Assembly: GCF_011065895.1 (NCBI RefSeq)
Contig: NZ_JAALCR010000003.1
Location: forward strand, 124,001 to 188,000
DNA: 64,000 nucleotides
Direction of reading: 5' to 3'
Source: Paludisphaera rhizosphaerae
GTDB lineage: Bacteria > Planctomycetota > Planctomycetia > Isosphaerales > Isosphaeraceae
This document shows, in pieces, positions 35,955 to 44,634 of this stretch (position 1 is its first letter; the number at the start of each line of letters is the position of its first letter). The notes under the pieces are model-generated. The model was not told the origin of the DNA, ran no database searches, and saw nothing but the letters and a program-made list of their open reading frames with translations. Both the position numbers and the translations under genes were made by a program.

Positions 35955-36389
35955 GCAGCGGAAGGAACGGAAGGACCGCTTCGACTGAACGTTCACCGCG
36001 TATTATGACGCCATCATATAATGTATGGTGAGTTCGTCCTGCTCCACGACCGGAAACTCGTCCGGGCGTTCCTGGACGGTGCCTATAACCCAAACGACAA
36101 CACGAACATCGGCTCCTCGGACGTGACGGGGAACCGTTCAGGGGTTGGGCGGACCTTGCCGCGTTCGTAGACGCCGACGAGCTTGGCTTCCGTGACACGG
36201 GACGACTGTGGGTCCGGCGAGAGGACGGATTTCCTTAAACTGCCGCTGAGTCCAGTTCAGGCCAGCCGAGGGCGGCAGCCTGACCCGAAAGACCGAGCCG
36301 AGCGCGTTCGGCCGTCACCAGAACCGATTGCTCGCGGATAAGATAATAATGAAGCGATGACATCCACATGGGCCCACGGAGGTCGAGAG
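35955..36389. other. Gene-free region before the VapBC-like pair
   Basis: No intact gene was recognised. On the reverse strand near 36080-36230 a short reading frame shows coding-like codons but ends after about 45 codons, so it could be a remnant. No promoter was confidently assigned. Confidence 0.35.
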
Positions 36390-36683
36390 ATGACGATCAC
36401 GATCGAACTCCCCCCCGATGAGGAGGAGGCGCTCCTTGAGAAGGCCCGTATGAGCGGACGTGATCTGGCTTCCTACATCCAGGGAATCATTCAGGATCAC
36501 ATCCAGCACGGGCAAGTTGGGGCATGGCCCGACGACCTCATCGACCGGGAAGCCATCGCTTACTGCACCCGTGAGATCGGCGGCGAGAAAGTCCCTTCTC
36601 ACGAGGAGGTAAGGCAGGCGCTGGCCAAGATCTCCGGTTCGATGGCCGAGGCGGTCATCGAGGAACGCAACGAGCGCTTCTGA
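36390..36683 (+). CDS. Antitoxin-like protein (VapB type)
   Basis: The protein has 97 residues. The ATG at 36390 has GGAGG about nine bases upstream. The N-terminus TITIELPPDEEEALLEKARMSGRDLASYIQGIIQD looks like a ribbon-helix-helix DNA-binding domain, typical of antitoxins that repress their own operon. The tail EEVRQALAKISGSMAEAVIEERNERF would wrap the toxin. Its stop codon is directly followed by the ATG of the PIN-domain gene, which strongly supports the pairing. Confidence 0.85.
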   Translation: MTITIELPPDEEEALLEKARMSGRDLASYIQGIIQDHIQHGQVGAWPDDLIDREAIAYCTREIGGEKVPSHEEVRQALAKISGSMAEAVIEERNERF

Positions 36684-37142
36684 ATGCCTCACTACTTCTT
36701 TGACACCAGCGCTCTCGTGAAGCACTACCACGCGGAGGCGGGCTCGCTCGAAGTTTCGAAGATCGTGGACGACCCCAAGTCCATCAATTCCATCGCTCGA
36801 CTCACTCTGGCCGAGATGGTCTCGGTCTTCGCCAGGAAGGTCAGGACAGGTGAGATCCGCGACCCGGATTTCGACCTTCTCAAACTCAGATTCTTCGCCG
36901 ACGTCGCCCATCGGCTGATCGTTCCGGTCCGCATCCTGAACGGCCATTTCGAGGCGGCGGGCTCGCTTATCTCGAAACACGGCCGGACTCGGCAACTGCA
37001 CACGCTCGACGCCTTGCAACTGGCGGTTGCTCTCTCCATCCAATTCCCGTCGCCCGTCGATCATTTCGTTTCGGCCGACCAACGGCTTCTCGAAATCGCC
37101 GCCCGCCAAGGACTCTCCTGCATCAATCCAGAGACGATATGA
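36684..37142 (+). CDS. PIN-domain ribonuclease toxin (VapC type)
   Basis: The protein has 152 residues. The PIN signature is clear: DTSALVKHY with Asp7, TLAEMVSVFAR with Glu44, LHTLDALQLAVAL with Asp109, and FVSADQRL with Asp132. These four acidic residues coordinate the metal that cleaves RNA, often tRNA. The ATG abuts the antitoxin stop. All catalytic residues are present, so the toxin should be active. The sigma-factor gene begins 116 bases later on the same strand. Confidence 0.88.
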   Translation: MPHYFFDTSALVKHYHAEAGSLEVSKIVDDPKSINSIARLTLAEMVSVFARKVRTGEIRDPDFDLLKLRFFADVAHRLIVPVRILNGHFEAAGSLISKHGRTRQLHTLDALQLAVALSIQFPSPVDHFVSADQRLLEIAARQGLSCINPETI

Positions 37143-37258
37143 TCGCGATCCCTCCGATGGATCGGCGCATCTTCCCAGAAAAACGCATTCGCCCGACGGC
37201 CGAATCGGCATAATACGGGGAAGAGCGTGATTCGAGGGAAGCGAGGGCGGTCTCGACG

Positions 37259-38218
37259 ATGATCGAGCGGGCGACGGACGCGATCTTGCTGAGGAGGTTC
37301 GCCGAGGGGCGCGAGGAGGCCGCGTTCGCGGAACTCGTGGAACGCCACGGGCCCGGCGTCAAGCGCGTCTGTCGGCGGTTCCTTCGGAGCGAGCACGACG
37401 CCGAAGACGTCTTTCAGGCGACGTTCCTGCTCCTGGCCCTGCGAGCCTCCGACGTGGCCTGGCGGTCGTCGGTCGCCGGCTGGGTGGGGGACGTGGCCCG
37501 TCGGTTGGCCCTCCACGCCCGGAGCGAGATCGCCCGCCGAAGCCGTCGAGAAACCCTCGCCTCATCCCTGCCCGGCGACTTCCGCTTCGGCGACGCCGGC
37601 CCTCTGCCCGACCTGGAATGCCCTCTTTCCGCATTCACCGAGGAAATCGAGCGGCGCGACGTCCGTCAGGCGATTGACGGCGCCCTGGACGATCTGCCTG
37701 AGAAATACCGGGCTCCCCTGGCCCTCTGTTACCTGGAAGGCAAGACCAACCAGGAAGCGGCTGCCGCGCTGGGATATCCCGTCGGCTCCATCTCCCGACG
37801 CCTCGACCGGGCCCGATCGCTCCTCCGCAAGAGCTTGATCGGCCGAGGGGTTACGCTCGGGCTGCTGCTCGCGGCGACCGTCTGGGCCGCCTCTTTCCTG
37901 CGATCCGATCATCGACCCGACCTCCCCCCCACGAGCGGAACGATCGCGACGGCGGCCACTCACCCCGATGCCCTGCGTGCGGCCGGGCTGACAGAACTCC
38001 TGGCCGCGCTGGAGCGTAATGACGGCGAAGGGCTCGACCGCGCCCGGATCGAGGCGGGCGTCGAGCACGCCGATCGTGCGGCCGTCGTTCGCGAGGAGTC
38101 CCGAAACCTGGCCGGCGCAACCCGGCTGGCGGCGCGGGAACTGGCCGCGAAGCCCGACGGCTCGGCGGCCTCGCGACTTCTCGCAACCTGCGTGCGATGC
38201 CACGTCGCGCTCCATTGA
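37259..38218 (+). CDS. Membrane-anchored ECF sigma factor with C-terminal heme-binding CxxCH motif
   Basis: The protein has 319 residues. The first 190 or so are an ECF sigma factor: region 2 ELVERHGPGVKRVCRRFLRSEHDAEDVFQATFLLL and region 4 DLPEKYRAPLALCYLEGKTNQEAAAALGYPVGSISRRLDRARSLLRK. A membrane helix follows (about 197-214, GVTLGLLLAATVWAASF). The last hundred residues are helical and end LLATCVRCHVALH, with CVRCH at 311-315, a c-type heme attachment motif next to the C-terminus, as in cytochrome c'. The predicted topology puts the heme site outside the cytoplasm. It lies 154 bases before the cytochrome c biogenesis genes. Extended ECF factors are common in planctomycetes; a terminal CxxCH is unusual. 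Confidence 0.85.
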   Translation: MIERATDAILLRRFAEGREEAAFAELVERHGPGVKRVCRRFLRSEHDAEDVFQATFLLLALRASDVAWRSSVAGWVGDVARRLALHARSEIARRSRRETLASSLPGDFRFGDAGPLPDLECPLSAFTEEIERRDVRQAIDGALDDLPEKYRAPLALCYLEGKTNQEAAAALGYPVGSISRRLDRARSLLRKSLIGRGVTLGLLLAATVWAASFLRSDHRPDLPPTSGTIATAATHPDALRAAGLTELLAALERNDGEGLDRARIEAGVEHADRAAVVREESRNLAGATRLAARELAAKPDGSAASRLLATCVRCHVALH

Positions 38219-38372
38219 TTCGTCTTAACCCTCCGGCTCTGCAAACCCGACGCCCCTGGTCGCTTACGGCGGCGCTGGATTAGAATTGAAGGATCTCGGG
38301 ACGGCCCGCGCGGCTCGACCCGGCCCGCCCGGCTCATCCCCGTTACTTCCTCCCTCCGGCAGGTGCGACGAC

Positions 38373-40493
38373 ATGGCGACGGCCACCAAGCAATACCCCG
38401 GCCCCCAACCCCCGAAGCCCGACGCCGTAAGGTCGGCCGGCGGCCGGCTCCTGGCCGTGGTCGACGAGATCTACAAGTTCCTGGCCTCGCTCAAGCTGGC
38501 CGTCCTGACGATCGGCGGACTCGCCGCGGCGCTCGCTTTCGCAACCTGGTTTGAATCGACCTATGGGACGAAAGCCGCCCAGGCGTTCGTCTATAAGAGC
38601 GTGTGGTTCGCCCTGATCCTCGCCTTCCTGGCGATCAACATCCTCTGCGCGGCGACGATCCGATTTCCCTGGAAGAAGCGGCAGACGGGCTTCGTGGTGA
38701 CGCACGCGGGGCTCCTGGTGCTGATCGCCGGCTCATACGTCCACTTCAAGTCGGGCGATGAGGGGACCGTCGGCATGCTGGAAGGGGAGACCCGCAGCGA
38801 AATGCTCCGGACCGACTCCCCCGTCTTCCGCATCCGCGAGGTCGACGCGCACACCCAGCAGCCCTCGGCCACGTACGCCATGGACTTCGACGAGAGCGGC
38901 CCGTTCCCCTGGGGGGGCGGCCAGCCTCGTATCCGCAACATCTTCGACCTGGGTCTGAATCGGGTCACCGGAGGCCGGCTCCCAACCGCTCGCTCCGAGG
39001 CCGACGTTCTCAGCAAGTCCGGCGACCCGTTCAAGCTCGTCGTTCGCGAGTACCTGCCGGCCTCGACCCCGGAAACGCTTCACGAGGCCTCGCCGGACGG
39101 TCAGCCGATGGCCCGGATGCTCTTGCGGTTCAAGGCCCCGATGATGCCCGAAGCCCGTCTGGCCAACCCGGACGAGGCCAGCCAGTGGTTCAAGCTCGAC
39201 CGCCGGTTCCAGCGCACTGCTCGCAGCGGCGAGATGCCGGCCCTGATCTCATTCACCTCGGTGGATCGCCCCGAATACGTTGAGGACTTCCTCAAGCCTC
39301 CCATCGACAAAAGCCCGATCGGCGTCGCTCGGTTCCGCTACGAAGGGAACGACGGCAAGGAACACGTTTACGACTTCCCCCTCGACGGCGCTACCGAGAA
39401 GCCGGTCCCGCTCCCCGACAGCGATCTAACCGCCACGCTTGAACGTCTGGCCCACTTCCCGACCGGCGAGTTGGCCCGGACGGTCGGCGAGGATTCGATC
39501 CCGATCGCCGTCTTCGACGTTCGCAAGGGGACGGCGGAGCCCGTCGAGCATGTGGCGATGGGCGAGATGCCCATGTTCCCCAACGTCATCCCCCGCGCCG
39601 TGCCCGATGGCACCCCGCCGCCCAAGGCCCTCGTCCGCATCCACATGATGCTGACGCCAGAGATCGACCCCAAGACGAACGGCCGGTTCGGCCAGGTCGA
39701 CGTTCTGGCCGCCCCCGACGGCAAGCTGTACTACCGGGTCTTCGGCCGGGGCAAGGAAGAAGGCAAGCCCGAGCTGCGCACGGCCGCCCCGATCAAGACC
39801 GGCGAATGGGTGGACGCCTTCGGCGGCGGGGGCGCGGCGATGTCCATCGGTTTCCAGGTCGCCGAGTTCCTCCCCTCGGGCGTCGAGAAGCGGGTCTTCC
39901 GCCCGCTCCATCTGCTGGGCAACCAGATGGAAGAGGCTATCCCCGCCTGCCTCGTCGAGTTGACCGCCGACGGCAAGTCCGAGGAGATCTGGATCCAGCG
40001 CAGCGAGTCGTTGGAAGCTCCCGTCTACCGCCCGGTGAACGTCGGCAGCCGATCGTTCGAGATCGCCTATGACGTCGACCGCAAGCCGCTGGGCTTCGAC
40101 GTGAAGCTGGAAGACTTCGAGGTCGGCTTCGAGCCGGGGACCGAGCAGGCCACCAAGTTCGTCAGCACGGTCAAGGTCGAAGACCCGGCGCACGGCGTCC
40201 GCGATCAGCAGCACGTCATCGCCATGAACGAGCCGATGACGCATCGCGGCCTGACGTTCTACCAGATGCGCTATTCACCGATCGTCGACCCGCGAACCAA
40301 CCAGCGGACAGGCCAGTTCCAGTCAGTCTTCCAGGTGGGAAGCAACCCGGGCCGGCCGATCATCTACGCCGGCAGTTTGCTCATCGTCCTGGGGACGTTC
40401 CTCCAGTTCTACATGCGGGCCGGCGCCTTCAACTACCGCGCGAAGCACGAGAAGCTCGAAGCCGCGAGGAAGGCCGAAGAGGAAACCCTGTGA
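38373..40493 (+). CDS. resB: ResB-like cytochrome c biogenesis protein
   Basis: The ATG at 38373 is chosen because AGGTG lies eight bases upstream and the preceding frame has no ribosome site. The product has 706 residues. N-terminal membrane helices (LKLAVLTIGGLAAALAFATWFE, WFALILAFLAINILCAATIRFPW, GFVVTHAGLLVLIAGSYVHF) match the ResB/Ccs1 family, with a large extracytoplasmic domain and a final helix (PIIYAGSLLIVLGTFLQFYM) after a MTHRGLTFYQMRY motif typical of ResB. It works with CcsA to deliver and attach heme to exported apocytochromes (System II). Its stop overlaps a possible GTG of the next gene. Confidence 0.9.
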   Translation: MATATKQYPGPQPPKPDAVRSAGGRLLAVVDEIYKFLASLKLAVLTIGGLAAALAFATWFESTYGTKAAQAFVYKSVWFALILAFLAINILCAATIRFPWKKRQTGFVVTHAGLLVLIAGSYVHFKSGDEGTVGMLEGETRSEMLRTDSPVFRIREVDAHTQQPSATYAMDFDESGPFPWGGGQPRIRNIFDLGLNRVTGGRLPTARSEADVLSKSGDPFKLVVREYLPASTPETLHEASPDGQPMARMLLRFKAPMMPEARLANPDEASQWFKLDRRFQRTARSGEMPALISFTSVDRPEYVEDFLKPPIDKSPIGVARFRYEGNDGKEHVYDFPLDGATEKPVPLPDSDLTATLERLAHFPTGELARTVGEDSIPIAVFDVRKGTAEPVEHVAMGEMPMFPNVIPRAVPDGTPPPKALVRIHMMLTPEIDPKTNGRFGQVDVLAAPDGKLYYRVFGRGKEEGKPELRTAAPIKTGEWVDAFGGGGAAMSIGFQVAEFLPSGVEKRVFRPLHLLGNQMEEAIPACLVELTADGKSEEIWIQRSESLEAPVYRPVNVGSRSFEIAYDVDRKPLGFDVKLEDFEVGFEPGTEQATKFVSTVKVEDPAHGVRDQQHVIAMNEPMTHRGLTFYQMRYSPIVDPRTNQRTGQFQSVFQVGSNPGRPIIYAGSLLIVLGTFLQFYMRAGAFNYRAKHEKLEAARKAEEETL

Positions 40494-40543
40494 GCCCCGC
40501 CCGCCCAGTCGATCCTAACGCCAACCATTCCGGGAGACGCGCG

Positions 40544-43150
40544 ATGAGACGATACGGCCGACTTCTCACCAGCCTGGCCCTCTGCGGCCTGCTCGGCGCG
40601 GCTTCCGCGGCCGAGCCGACCTCGGGCCCGCGCAAGCTTGGGACCGGCCCGGCCTACGACCGGCTCGGCCGGATCGCCGTCATGCACCAGGGTCGAATCA
40701 AACCCCTGGACACCGTGGCCCGCGAGGAGGTCAAGCAGGTCTTCGGCCGTGAGACGGTCAAGATCCTCGACGGCCGCAACGAGGTCGCCGAGACCTGGGC
40801 CCCCGTCTCCGCGTTCGTCGACTGGATGATCCGCCCCGAGTTCTGGGACTCGCAGCCGTTCATCCTCGTCGACTACCTCCCGCTGAAGCGGCAGATCCTG
40901 CTGGGCCCGATCCGCACCCAACTGGCCGCGATCGCGGCCCGCCCTGAGACGCCCGACGAGGACAAGAAGAAGCTCGTACTCCTCGGCGAAGACCAGGCCC
41001 TCGACGCCGCCGCCGTCATCGGCTTCCTCAAGTCGGCGAAGCTCGTGGAGGCCGACCGCAAGCTGCTGGAAGAGGTCGCCGCGAAGCTCTCCGAGGAGCA
41101 CAAGTGGCTCTCCCCGACAGACTTCGACGACGCCAAGATCCGCCACGGCGAGCACGACGAATCGTTCATGCAGTGGGTGGCTCAGCTCGACGACCAGAAG
41201 CGAAAGTTCGACCGCGACCCGGCCCTCGCCGCGCGGCCGACGGAAGTCGAGCGTCGGGCGATTCAGGTCGGCCACCGGCTGGCGACCTATCGGGCGTACT
41301 CCGGCGAGGAGATTCAGAGCAACGCCCTCATCCGGATCATGCCCCGGCCTTTCGGGCCCGAGGCGTTCGCGTACTTCAAAACCGCGCTCGAAGACCTTCG
41401 GGCCAAGATGAAGGTCGACGAGAACCTCTCCGGCCGGTCGCTGCCGCCGGTCCAGTTCGACGTGATCAAGGCTCTGCAGACCTACTGGATGGACATCCCG
41501 GACACCGACCATCACGACCCAGGGTCGAACGCCGAGGCCGACAAGAAGTTCGCCTCCTGGCTCGCCGAGAGCTCGGTCTGGGTGCCGCTCAAGGTCTTGC
41601 TCCAGGCGGAGCCCACCGACCTGGCCGCGGCTGGCTACCCGGAGCAGCAGGCTCGCGCCTTCCTGGATGCCTACAAGGGCTTTGAAAAAGCCGAGAACGA
41701 GAAGCCCGGAGAGATCGCCGTCGAACCGGCCGAGGCGCTGCTGACAGCGTCGCGCTCTCTGGGCGAGGCCGTCAATCCGCAGTTCTACCCGTCGGCCGCG
41801 GCCATCGATCGCGAGTCCCGATTCAACGCGGTCAACCCGTTCTATCAGGCCCCCTTCGCCTACGGGACAGCCCTGGCGCTGCTGGCGATCGCCCTGGGCT
41901 TCTCCGGCGGCCGAGTGGCCGAGATGAGCACGATCGGCAAGGCGATCCGAGGGGTCGGGATGCTCGCCCTGCTGACGGGGATCGCGTGGGAATGCTACGG
42001 GTTCTACCTCCGGATCTCGATCTCGGGCTGGGCGCCGGTTACGAACATGTATGAGACGGTCATCTGGGTCGCCTTGGTGGCCGCCGTCCTGTCGTTCATC
42101 TTCGAGCTGATCTACCGTCGCACCTTCTCGGCCGTGGCGGGGGCCGCCGTGGCCCTGCTCGGGACGATCACCGCGCTCAACGTGCCGCTCCTCGACCCCA
42201 GCATCAAGAGCCTCCAGCCGGTACTGCGGAGCAACCTCTGGCTGACGATCCACGTCCTGACGGAGGTCTCCAGCTACGCGGCGTTCGGCCTGGCCTGGGC
42301 GCTCGGTCTGATCGCGACGATCTACTACCTGACCGCCACCTACCGGCGTTCGCCCTCGTACGGAGAGCTGGCCTCGCCGCTCGTCCCGGCCTTCCCGCTG
42401 TTCACGGTGGGCCTCGGCGGGATGCTCGCCGGCTACGGGATGTTCGGCCCGTCGTGGGTCGTCCCCGACGGCCTCTTCTACGTCTTCGCCGCGATGGCCG
42501 CGATCGGCGGCATGGCCTCGCTGGGAGCCGTTCTCTCCGTCGTCGGCGAGTTCCTCAACCAGATCTCCTGGAACGGCGAAATCCTCGACCTGCCGGCCCT
42601 CAGCGGCGGGGCCCCCGAGCCGGCCGTCGCCGAGGCGCCCAAGGCCCGTCCCTCCGTTGAGGAGATCGTCGCCTCGGCCGCCCCCGCCAAGCTCGACCTC
42701 CGCGGCCTGGCCATGCAGCGGACCGCGGCCACGATCAAGCCGCTGGCCAACTTCATCTACCGCGCCATGCAGGTCGGCGTCCTGTTGATCGCGGCCGGGA
42801 CGATCCTCGGCGGCGTCTGGGCGGATTACTCCTGGGGCCGGTTCTGGGGATGGGACCCGAAGGAGGTCTGGGCGCTCATCACCCTGCTGGTTTACCTCGT
42901 CCCGCTCCACGGGCGGTTCGCCGGCTGGGTGAGCATGTTCGGCCTGGTCTTCGCCTCGGTCGTCTGCTTCCTGTCCGTCGTCATGGCCTGGTACGGCGTG
43001 AACTTCGTGCTGGGCGTCGGCCTGCACAGCTACGGCTTCGTCGAGGGAGGTTCGCAAGGCGCGATGGGCGTCATCCTCTGCTCGATCATGGCCCTGCCGC
43101 TAGCCGCCTGGTGGCGTCGACGGTTGGGACAGCTTCGCGCGGCCGTCTGA
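40544..43150 (+). CDS. ccsA: CcsA/ResC-like cytochrome c biogenesis protein with long N-terminal domain
   Basis: The ATG at 40544 has GGGAGA seven bases upstream and starts a signal-like helix (RYGRLLTSLALCGLLGAASAA); a GTG at 40490 overlapping the upstream stop is the alternative. The product has 868 residues. About 430 extracytoplasmic residues precede a CcsA membrane domain. The heme-handling WWD motif is intact (WGRFWGWDPKEVWALIT, near residue 765), and conserved His residues follow (VPLHGRF, GLHSYGF). This is the heme transporter/ligase of System II, paired with the ResB gene just upstream. The long N-terminal part is normal for planctomycete and Bacteroidetes-type members. Confidence 0.92.
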   Translation: MRRYGRLLTSLALCGLLGAASAAEPTSGPRKLGTGPAYDRLGRIAVMHQGRIKPLDTVAREEVKQVFGRETVKILDGRNEVAETWAPVSAFVDWMIRPEFWDSQPFILVDYLPLKRQILLGPIRTQLAAIAARPETPDEDKKKLVLLGEDQALDAAAVIGFLKSAKLVEADRKLLEEVAAKLSEEHKWLSPTDFDDAKIRHGEHDESFMQWVAQLDDQKRKFDRDPALAARPTEVERRAIQVGHRLATYRAYSGEEIQSNALIRIMPRPFGPEAFAYFKTALEDLRAKMKVDENLSGRSLPPVQFDVIKALQTYWMDIPDTDHHDPGSNAEADKKFASWLAESSVWVPLKVLLQAEPTDLAAAGYPEQQARAFLDAYKGFEKAENEKPGEIAVEPAEALLTASRSLGEAVNPQFYPSAAAIDRESRFNAVNPFYQAPFAYGTALALLAIALGFSGGRVAEMSTIGKAIRGVGMLALLTGIAWECYGFYLRISISGWAPVTNMYETVIWVALVAAVLSFIFELIYRRTFSAVAGAAVALLGTITALNVPLLDPSIKSLQPVLRSNLWLTIHVLTEVSSYAAFGLAWALGLIATIYYLTATYRRSPSYGELASPLVPAFPLFTVGLGGMLAGYGMFGPSWVVPDGLFYVFAAMAAIGGMASLGAVLSVVGEFLNQISWNGEILDLPALSGGAPEPAVAEAPKARPSVEEIVASAAPAKLDLRGLAMQRTAATIKPLANFIYRAMQVGVLLIAAGTILGGVWADYSWGRFWGWDPKEVWALITLLVYLVPLHGRFAGWVSMFGLVFASVVCFLSVVMAWYGVNFVLGVGLHSYGFVEGGSQGAMGVILCSIMALPLAAWWRRRLGQLRAAV

Positions 43151-43245
43151 CCGGGTGAACGCGGGACGGCGGCTCTCCATCGTGGTATGCTCGGGCCCAT
43201 TGCTCGTCAAAGGTCCCCGCCGCGATCTCGGAGCCGCCCCCCGCG

Positions 43246-44634
43246 ATGTCCGTCCAGCCCGTCGTCGTCATTAACGCCGTGGGGATGACCCGTCGGCTCC
43301 TCGCCCACGCTCCAAAGCTCCGAGCCCTGGCCGATTCCGGATGGGCCCGGTCGCTGGAGGAAGTGGTCCCAGCCGTCACCTGCACGGCGCAGGCCAGCCT
43401 GCTGACGGGCAAGCTCCCGCAGGAGCACGGGGTCGTTGCCAACGGCTGGCTCTTTCGCGACACCCGCGAGGTCCGCTTCTGGCAGCAGTCAAGCGCCCTC
43501 GTCCAGGCGGAGACGATTGAGACGACCCTGCGCCGGATCGGCCGCGAGCGCGGGCGGCCGTTCAAAGTCGCCAAGCTCTTCTGGTGGTTCAACCAGGGGG
43601 CCGACGTCGACCTGAGCGTCACGCCCAAGCCCTATTATGGGGCTGACGGCAACAAGGTCTTCGGCATCGCCGGTACGCCCGACGGCCTTTGCGAACGGCT
43701 GGAGGGACGGCTCGGCAAGTTCCCGTTCCACACGTTCTGGGGTCCTAACGCCGGCCTCCCCTGCACCGACTGGATCGCGAAGGCCGCCGCCGACGTCCTC
43801 AAGGATGACCGCCCCGACCTGACGCTCGTCTACCTGCCGCACCTGGACTACGAGCCGCAGCGGCGGGGGCCGTCCGGCTGCGACATGCCGAAGCTCGTCG
43901 CCGAACTCGACGCCGCCGCCGCGCCCTTGCTCGACGCCGCAAAGGCCGCCGGCGCTCGGGTCTGGGTCGTCAGCGAGTACGGCCATTGCGACGTCTCTCG
44001 CCCCGTCCTGCTCAACCGCATCTTGCGTCAGGCCGGCCTGCTGACCGTCCGCCCCGGGCCATTCGGTGAGACGATCGACGCGTTCAACAGCCGCGCGATC
44101 GCCGTCTGCGATCACCAGCTTGCACATATCTACGTTTCCAATCCCGACGACGTTCAGGCCGTCCGGGAGCTGCTGGCGTCACAACCGGGCGTCTCGCGAA
44201 CGTACGCCGGCGCGGAGTGGGCGGAGATCGGCCTGGACCACGAGCGTTCCGGCGAGGTCGTCGCCCTCTCCGACCGCGACGCCTGGTTCGCGTACCCGTA
44301 CTGGCTCGACGACGCGCTCGCGCCGGACTTCGCCCGGACGATCGACATCCACCGCAAGCCGGGCTTCGACCCCTGCGAGATGTTTTTCGATCCCGCCCTG
44401 ATCTGGCCGATGGGCCGGGCCATGCGCCGTTTGATCCAGAAGAAGCTCGGCTTCCGCACCCTGTTCGACGTCGTGCCCCTCGACCCGACCCTCGTCCGCG
44501 GCAGCCACGGACTCCCCGCCGCCGATCCGCTCGACAAGCCCCTGCTCGTCGCAGACGGTCCCGAGCCGACGGAAGGACTCTTGAAGACGACCGACTTCCG
44601 TGGCCTGCTGCTCAACGCCTTGACTCAGGATTAA
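43246..44634 (+). CDS. Alkaline-phosphatase-family nucleotide pyrophosphatase/phosphodiesterase
   Basis: The protein has 462 residues with no signal peptide. The catalytic Thr region VVPAVTCTAQASLLTGKLPQEHGVVANGW and metal-binding residues in YLPHLDYEPQRRGP and VVSEYGHCDVSRPV match the NPP branch of the alkaline phosphatase superfamily. FWGPNAGLPCTDWIAKAAADV is typical of a subfamily that also occurs in EboF-type gene clusters, but none of the other ebo genes are seen here. The substrate is unknown. The sulfatase gene starts two bases after its stop. Confidence 0.85.
   Translation: MSVQPVVVINAVGMTRRLLAHAPKLRALADSGWARSLEEVVPAVTCTAQASLLTGKLPQEHGVVANGWLFRDTREVRFWQQSSALVQAETIETTLRRIGRERGRPFKVAKLFWWFNQGADVDLSVTPKPYYGADGNKVFGIAGTPDGLCERLEGRLGKFPFHTFWGPNAGLPCTDWIAKAAADVLKDDRPDLTLVYLPHLDYEPQRRGPSGCDMPKLVAELDAAAAPLLDAAKAAGARVWVVSEYGHCDVSRPVLLNRILRQAGLLTVRPGPFGETIDAFNSRAIAVCDHQLAHIYVSNPDDVQAVRELLASQPGVSRTYAGAEWAEIGLDHERSGEVVALSDRDAWFAYPYWLDDALAPDFARTIDIHRKPGFDPCEMFFDPALIWPMGRAMRRLIQKKLGFRTLFDVVPLDPTLVRGSHGLPAADPLDKPLLVADGPEPTEGLLKTTDFRGLLLNALTQD

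Follow-up and report, generated by a model that had tools for sequence, protein, structure and literature searches.

A predicted membrane-tethered ECF sigma factor with a predicted cytochrome c'-like tail encoded beside cytochrome c maturation genes in Paludisphaera and related planctomycetes

Introduction

To our knowledge, it is little understood how bacteria match their capacity for cytochrome c maturation to the demand for it. The question is raised anew by a gene in a stretch of 64,000 nucleotides (nt) from Paludisphaera rhizosphaerae (contig NZ_JAALCR010000003.1, positions 124,001 to 188,000; hereafter the window), which encodes a predicted membrane-tethered extracytoplasmic function (ECF) sigma factor whose C-terminal tail ends with a CxxCH heme c attachment motif, and which is followed on the same strand by resB- and ccsA-type genes for heme attachment (Table 1). 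Could a transcription initiation factor be a client of the machine encoded beside it, and control that machine? At the level of sequence, the architecture of the protein, the conservation of its CxxCH motif, the linkage to resB-ccsA and the presence of a dedicated conserved element upstream are established, and the architecture together with the position before heme-attachment genes suggests a self-adjusting control of cytochrome assembly.

Architecture of the sigma factor

The window protein contains sigma70 region 2 (residues 26–88; PF04542, E 7.1e-10) and region 4 (residues 136–188; PF08281, E 4.3e-12), both over cut-off, and also matches TIGR02937 (E 2.2e-23). With regions 2 and 4 present it belongs to the ECF sigma70 factors, and both regions were likewise matched in 15/15 members of one scanned orthologue alignment. 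The hydrophobic stretch VTLGLLLAATVWAASFL starts at residue 198 (mean Kyte-Doolittle value 1.99), and between region 4 and the helix there are three positive residues and no negative one. In all 18 members scored, the hydrophobic helix follows region 4 after 3–9 residues and is preceded by more positive than negative residues, a charge pattern from which the tail is predicted to be extracytoplasmic. The short distance to the helix leaves no room for a cytoplasmic anti-sigma domain. No Pfam or NCBIfam family, anti-sigma domains included, matched the extension beyond the sigma domain of the window protein, and no anti-sigma family was matched in the neighbouring genes scanned.

A first-pass annotation, made from the letters of the window alone, had described an ECF sigma factor (residues 1–190) followed by a membrane helix and a tail, predicted to be outside, ending with CVRCH. 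This order of parts was confirmed by the domain matches, the hydrophobic stretch and the location of CVRCH at residues 311–315 of 319, and the single predicted helix with its charge pattern agrees with a tail outside the membrane.

Distribution of the gene and conservation of the CxxCH motif

Orthologues were found in 18 of 45 Isosphaeraceae genomes, spanning six genera including Paludisphaera, Aquisphaera and Singulisphaera; a single genome from a different family (G290) also has one. The profile search of the 45 genomes returned 17 full-length matches (E <= 7.7e-114), to which G005 was added, where a run of N interrupts the gene; the next match (E 9.9e-66) left the tail uncovered. Wider searches covered 397 genomes of the class and 392 of the phylum, with five candidates scored in each genome, and 95 genomes from the family to which G290 belongs, with up to 22; they added only G290, and may have missed members. 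In a tree of sigma domains, 17 members grouped with support of 100/99, apart from 17 paralogues from the same genome as the window and two other ECF sigma factors; the tree omitted three of the 20 paralogues fetched (coverage filter), L072 as a near-duplicate and the copy in G005 with its gap.

The CxxCH motif is kept in 19/19 members over the two families, while little else in the tail is. In an alignment of 15 family members, no residue in the 122 tail columns is invariant except C311, C314 and H315, and the mean pairwise identity is 30.0% in the tail compared to 60.4% in the sigma part. The distance from region 4 to the first cysteine is 122–141 residues in the 18 tails measured; the window's tail is the shortest (122 residues) and the other 17 span 129–141, so that a shortening of the tail throughout Paludisphaera, which had been considered, was dropped. 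The motif is followed by four or five residues in 13 of 18 measured members and by 98–109 residues in five (L070, L071, L072, L073 and L075).

For comparison, 20 paralogous ECF sigma factors were fetched from the same genome out of 42 further matches, located by tblastn. Their sigma domains are related and they too are membrane-anchored, but their hydrophobic peak lies approximately 50–80 residues further on, and none of the 20 carries a CxxCH near its C-terminal end. One paralogue has a different heme-related architecture, which combines sigma regions and a hydrophobic segment with a di-haem oxidoreductase (DHOR) domain (PF06537, E 1.9e-27) that contains two CxxCH motifs (L181:368-2641; G000:C43; L199:5499-7844).

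These data bear on two explanations in which the motif carries no signal. The first-pass annotation had held that the motif would probably be accidental if homologous sigma factors lacked it, and the homologues came out in favour of a genuine motif. An accidental CxxCH in a coincidental neighbourhood would fit the lack of a family match for the window's own tail, but its probability is negligible, since it is already contradicted by conservation in 19/19 members over two families and by the conserved linkage and upstream element described below; the accidental reading was accordingly ruled out. Alternatively, the heme c tail may be a structural or stability module, in which heme attachment does no more than fold and anchor the protein. 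The activity of the sigma factor would then depend on a different partner or on its level of expression, and the linkage to resB-ccsA would stem from a shared autoregulated operon that receives no feedback from the heme state. The strong divergence of the tail outside the motif and the 98–109 extra residues in five members would suit such a module, but that CxxCH persists in every member beside the machine that uses it, when nearly everything else has changed, is unexpected without a signalling role, and we consider this explanation improbable.

Linkage to resB and ccsA

In Paludisphaera, the gene is present with the motif TCVxCH in all six genomes of the genus, always in the order sigma-resB-ccsA-phosphodiesterase. 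Across the family, resB is the next gene after the sigma gene in 16 of the 18 genomes, and in G290 the sigma gene, a lipoprotein-like gene (L102:2153-3223) and a ResB-containing gene follow each other on one strand, a linkage one gene apart. The first-pass annotation had named the two genes downstream as ResB and CcsA types and had proposed looking for the same adjacency in other planctomycetes, and both points hold: the window proteins match PF05140 and PF01578 over cut-off, and the adjacency recurs as described. The CcsA/CcsB-type protein scores 142.4 bits against TIGR03144, under the curated cut-off of 187.6, and its translation contains the tryptophan-rich stretch WGxFWGWDPKE, which we take to be the WWD-type signature; ResB and a WWD-type CcsA together make this a Ccs (system II) pair. 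The resB stop and the ccsA reading frame overlap by 4 nt (40490–40493), and the start of ResB is most likely the ATG at 38373 rather than the mechanically assigned TTG at 38286.

In the two Singulisphaera loci where the sigma gene lies elsewhere (L085 and L086), it is flanked by genes that by eye resemble oxidoreductase genes, and by one for a protein of 1288–1291 amino acids with CxxCH, also named by eye.

A promoter-like element dedicated to the sigma gene

Alignment of the six Paludisphaera upstream regions revealed one block that stands out. Its consensus, GAAA-nn-YGCAT-N17/18-GRCAT-n-AT, occurs 35–48 nt ahead of the start at 17/17 resB-linked sigma genes (16 directly linked family loci and G290), with GCAT and CAT-n-A invariant. 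The 17 sites score 13–16 of 16, two of them 13, compared to a top score of 13, reached 21 times, among 5000 control pieces taken at loci that lack the gene; as the consensus derives from these very sites, their scores are overstated. Less affected by this fitting are the constant spacing, the site in G290 and the single occurrence per genome. The strict pattern matched once per genome in 6/6 Paludisphaera genomes, always before this sigma gene, and the backwards pattern gave one match in all six whole genomes taken together; in the window, the element was found once against 0.01 expected.

No second genomic target was found with the strict pattern in the six Paludisphaera genomes. Allowing up to two mismatches with spacer N18, a search which omits the spacer of 17 used by three of the six genomes, gave two further sites, both in G004 and both with two mismatches. 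Before resB genes without an adjacent sigma gene, the best score was only 9–11 at 10/10 loci (eight genomes without the gene and the two from Singulisphaera), and in the 14 sigma-resB gaps scored it was 9–10. The two unlinked Singulisphaera sigma genes share, by eye, the variant TTGCAT-N17-GGCAATAC, with consensus scores of 11 and 13. A sigma-70 promoter scan of positions 37000–43400 found none.

Probable relation of the tail to cytochrome c'

The tails were compared to the class II cytochromes c', which carry their CxxCH in the last helix of a four-helix bundle. The motif of the sigma factor is likewise near the C-terminus, as is a trait of class II c-type cytochromes. PF01322 (cytochrome c', cut-off 26.5 bits) matched 9/15 family tails at E<=1, only L075 of these being over cut-off (30.5 bits); with the Singulisphaera member L097 (26.9 bits) and the G290 member L099 (30.6 bits), three members exceed it, and in the whole G290 protein the sigma regions and PF01322 are each over cut-off. 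At E<=1e-6, a profile built from the tail found matches in 130 of the 397 class genomes, sigma fusions included; of a further 12 loci retained, ten appeared as reading frames with a terminal CxxCH, and by eye none had a sigma domain. Nine standalone planctomycete cytochrome c'-like proteins all match PF01322, and a profile comparison of the tail with these nine gave a probability of 98.5%, a value that is partly circular because seven of the nine had been found by the tail profile and two by PF01322. The profile evidence thus makes a relation of the tail to cytochrome c' probable; 4/5 Paludisphaera tails scanned, including that of the window, gave no PF01322 match.

Structural comparison was compatible with this relation. 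The helices of a modelled tail from a relative (L152) form a four-helix bundle with a mean predicted local distance difference test (pLDDT) score of 83.7. Among the 50 Foldseek matches listed, cytochromes c' and b562 types predominate, none at E<=0.001, and a second aligner (VIA-align) superposed the Kuenenia cytochrome Kusta0087/0088 with Z 12.2 (root-mean-square deviation 2.5, 102 aligned residues), a Z that unrelated bundles equal. As unrelated helical bundles score like cytochromes, the fold similarity is consistent with a cytochrome c' but not diagnostic. Searching solved structures with the tail profile was rejected as a diagnostic, the best three matches being designed helical proteins and cytochromes b562 and c' appearing only from E 0.0098 and 0.19 on, and the full-length model of the window protein was dropped as a fold-search query (mean pLDDT 54.8). 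The likeness to cytochrome c' in the first-pass annotation is therefore probable from the profile matches and the modelled bundle of relatives, while the window's own tail has neither a family match nor a good model.

That the CxxCH is instead a metal site or thiol switch without heme has a precedent in the CorE-type ECF sigma factors, whose cysteine-rich C-terminal extensions sense metals (PMC8999054). In the present case, the profile relation to cytochrome c', the position of the tail after a predicted membrane helix beside heme-attachment genes, and a histidine among the three invariant residues all argue against it, and we regard a heme-free site as highly improbable.

Cytochromes c' bind NO and CO, and several structures among the Foldseek matches listed are complexes with one of these ligands. 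The same architecture could therefore serve a mature heme c tail that senses a ligand or redox state (NO, CO, O2 or electron flow), with control of resB-ccsA as one output among others. Such a sensor would be in keeping with the similar tail length in the 18 members measured, with the Singulisphaera genes unlinked from resB and close to putative oxidoreductase genes, and with an arginine four residues after the heme histidine in 12/13 members outside Paludisphaera. However, within Paludisphaera this arginine is found in only 1/6 members and the PF01322 match is mostly lost, yet CxxCH is kept in 6/6; beyond C, C and H no tail residue is invariant, and what is conserved in the neighbourhood is a maturation machine. 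With only C, C and H invariant, a reporter of heme attachment probably fits better than a ligand pocket, and we consider the ligand or redox sensor rather unlikely. The first-pass annotation had suggested sensing of heme supply, redox state or NO outside the membrane to control cytochrome c maturation, with the tail itself as a maturation substrate. This interpretation is supported in part: the sequences bear out the conserved motif, the likely cytochrome c' relation, the single predicted membrane helix and the linkage, and the NO or redox pocket is weakened by the Paludisphaera tails.

A possible feedback loop in cytochrome c maturation

The reading that we favour, and to which we give nearly even chances, is that the sigma factor acts on the sigma-resB-ccsA operon that encodes it and has a tail that is a client of ResB-CcsA, forming a maturation feedback loop. 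The protein would be a single-chain, membrane-tethered ECF sigma factor with a small heme c domain of class II (cytochrome c'-like) as its outside part, and it would recognise the conserved element and transcribe itself together with resB-ccsA. With enough maturation capacity, the tail would become a stable holo-bundle and the sigma factor would stay tethered. A shortfall of heme supply, thiol reduction or ResB-CcsA capacity would leave an unfolded apo-tail open to cleavage, followed by intramembrane proteolysis and release of the sigma domain, which would raise resB-ccsA expression until the tail matures again. In this scheme we infer five elements: the attachment of heme, the recognition of the promoter by the sigma factor, read-through into resB, proteolytic release and the direction of the signal. 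The stricter version, a closed homeostat in which the initiation factor is itself a cytochrome c maturation substrate, its apo or holo state gates its release and its only strong promoter drives both itself and the machine, is put forward more tentatively.

Several observations weigh against the feedback loop. Two Singulisphaera genomes have the sigma gene away from resB, so operon-only control is not universal, and 25 of the 43 resB-containing family genomes, some of them incomplete, have no full-length sigma match, so the sigma factor is not required for maturation as such. In eight of these 25 genomes the region upstream of resB contained no such ECF gene; one, G011, has there a gene that by eye is sugar isomerase-like, with neither a sigma gene nor an element in between. 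The sigma-resB gap of 154 nt (38219–38372) could hold a promoter of its own for resB. PF01322 does not match the window's own tail, and the window protein is modelled with low confidence. Finally, the element was scored against a consensus drawn from its own sites, and a search of this kind would overlook regulon sites that are more degenerate.

Comparison with known systems

Other ECF sigma factors with a fused transmembrane C-terminal extension (IutY/ECF243, ECF48, ECF52, ECF53 and SCO4117) likewise combine a sigma domain, a membrane segment and an extracytoplasmic part in one chain, and the membrane-fused IutY is activated by regulated proteolysis (PMC8999054). The window protein shares with IutY the predicted single chain of sigma domain and membrane helix, but its extension lacks an anti-sigma domain, for which the helix directly past region 4 leaves no space; in addition, its outside part is cytochrome c'-like and its gene is linked to cytochrome c maturation genes.

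A second parallel is TorC/TorS of Escherichia coli, where apo-TorC signals through TorS, so that a c-type cytochrome in its apo form likewise influences transcription by feedback (PMC11727998). In that system the cytochrome is a protein of its own and addresses a histidine kinase and its own respiratory operon, whereas in the present case a single chain would comprise both cytochrome and transcription factor, with the maturation machine as the target. With the class II cytochromes c' (PF01322), including the standalone planctomycete proteins, several members share the profile match, and their CxxCH is placed in what is predicted to be the last helix of a bundle of four; the tail differs in being divergent, with no profile match in 4/5 Paludisphaera tails scanned, and in its fusion through a membrane helix to a sigma factor.

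Our literature search, by titles and the openings of abstracts, gave no paper that describes a cytochrome c domain in an ECF sigma factor, although earlier mention is possible in the ECF classification of 2021, Jogler 2012 or Wiegand 2020. The portions available of two ECF reviews, one of them PMC8999054, do not mention any, and in PMC10924375 both terms occur, about different genes. If true, the feedback reading would describe a sigma factor whose sensor is a covalently bound heme, a kind that our literature search did not bring up, and which, by bearing a client domain of the machine that it appears to control, would answer for one lineage how maturation capacity is matched to demand; together with the DHOR-bearing ECF sigma factor of the same genome, such a client-sensor homeostat would establish heme c sigma factors as a class.

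Features and neighbouring genes

Table 1. Coordinates of the features discussed, as positions in the window.
Feature	Position	Strand	Basis
Promoter-like element GAAAAACGCAT-N18-GGCATAAT	37178..37214	+	44 nt before the sigma gene; conserved before resB-linked orthologues
ECF sigma factor of 319 amino acids, predicted to be membrane-tethered and to end in a cytochrome c'-like tail	37259..38218	+	Sigma70 r2/r4, TIGR02937, orthologue alignments, tree group support 100/99
Sigma domain, residues 1-190	37259..37828	+	Domain matches; mean pairwise identity 60.4%, 15 family members
Predicted membrane helix, residues 197-214	37847..37900	+	Kyte-Doolittle peak 1.99; 1.66-2.63 across 18 members scored
Predicted periplasmic tail, cytochrome c'-like by homology	37931..38215	+	PF01322 matches in relatives, none in the window's tail; modelled tail of a relative
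Heme c attachment motif CVRCH, residues 311-315	38189..38203	+	C311, C314 and H315 are the sole invariant tail residues, 15 family members
Cytochrome c maturation gene of resB type, with proposed ATG start	38373..40493	+	PF05140 E 2.7e-22; orthologue adjoins sigma gene
ccsA/ccsB-type heme lyase gene	40490..43150	+	PF01578 E 1.5e-28; TIGR03144 E 2.1e-41

Upstream of the sigma gene, positions 36357–37142 hold a possible antitoxin gene (weak matches only) and a PIN-domain gene, ending 35 nt before the promoter-like element; neither gave a tblastn match in the corresponding loci of the other five Paludisphaera genomes. In the gap between the sigma gene and resB, a TTAGAAT- or TAGAAT-like block is found in 5/6 Paludisphaera genomes, possibly a separate basal promoter of resB. 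Downstream of ccsA, a gene for a type I phosphodiesterase/nucleotide pyrophosphatase (43246–44634) is present in all six genomes of the genus.

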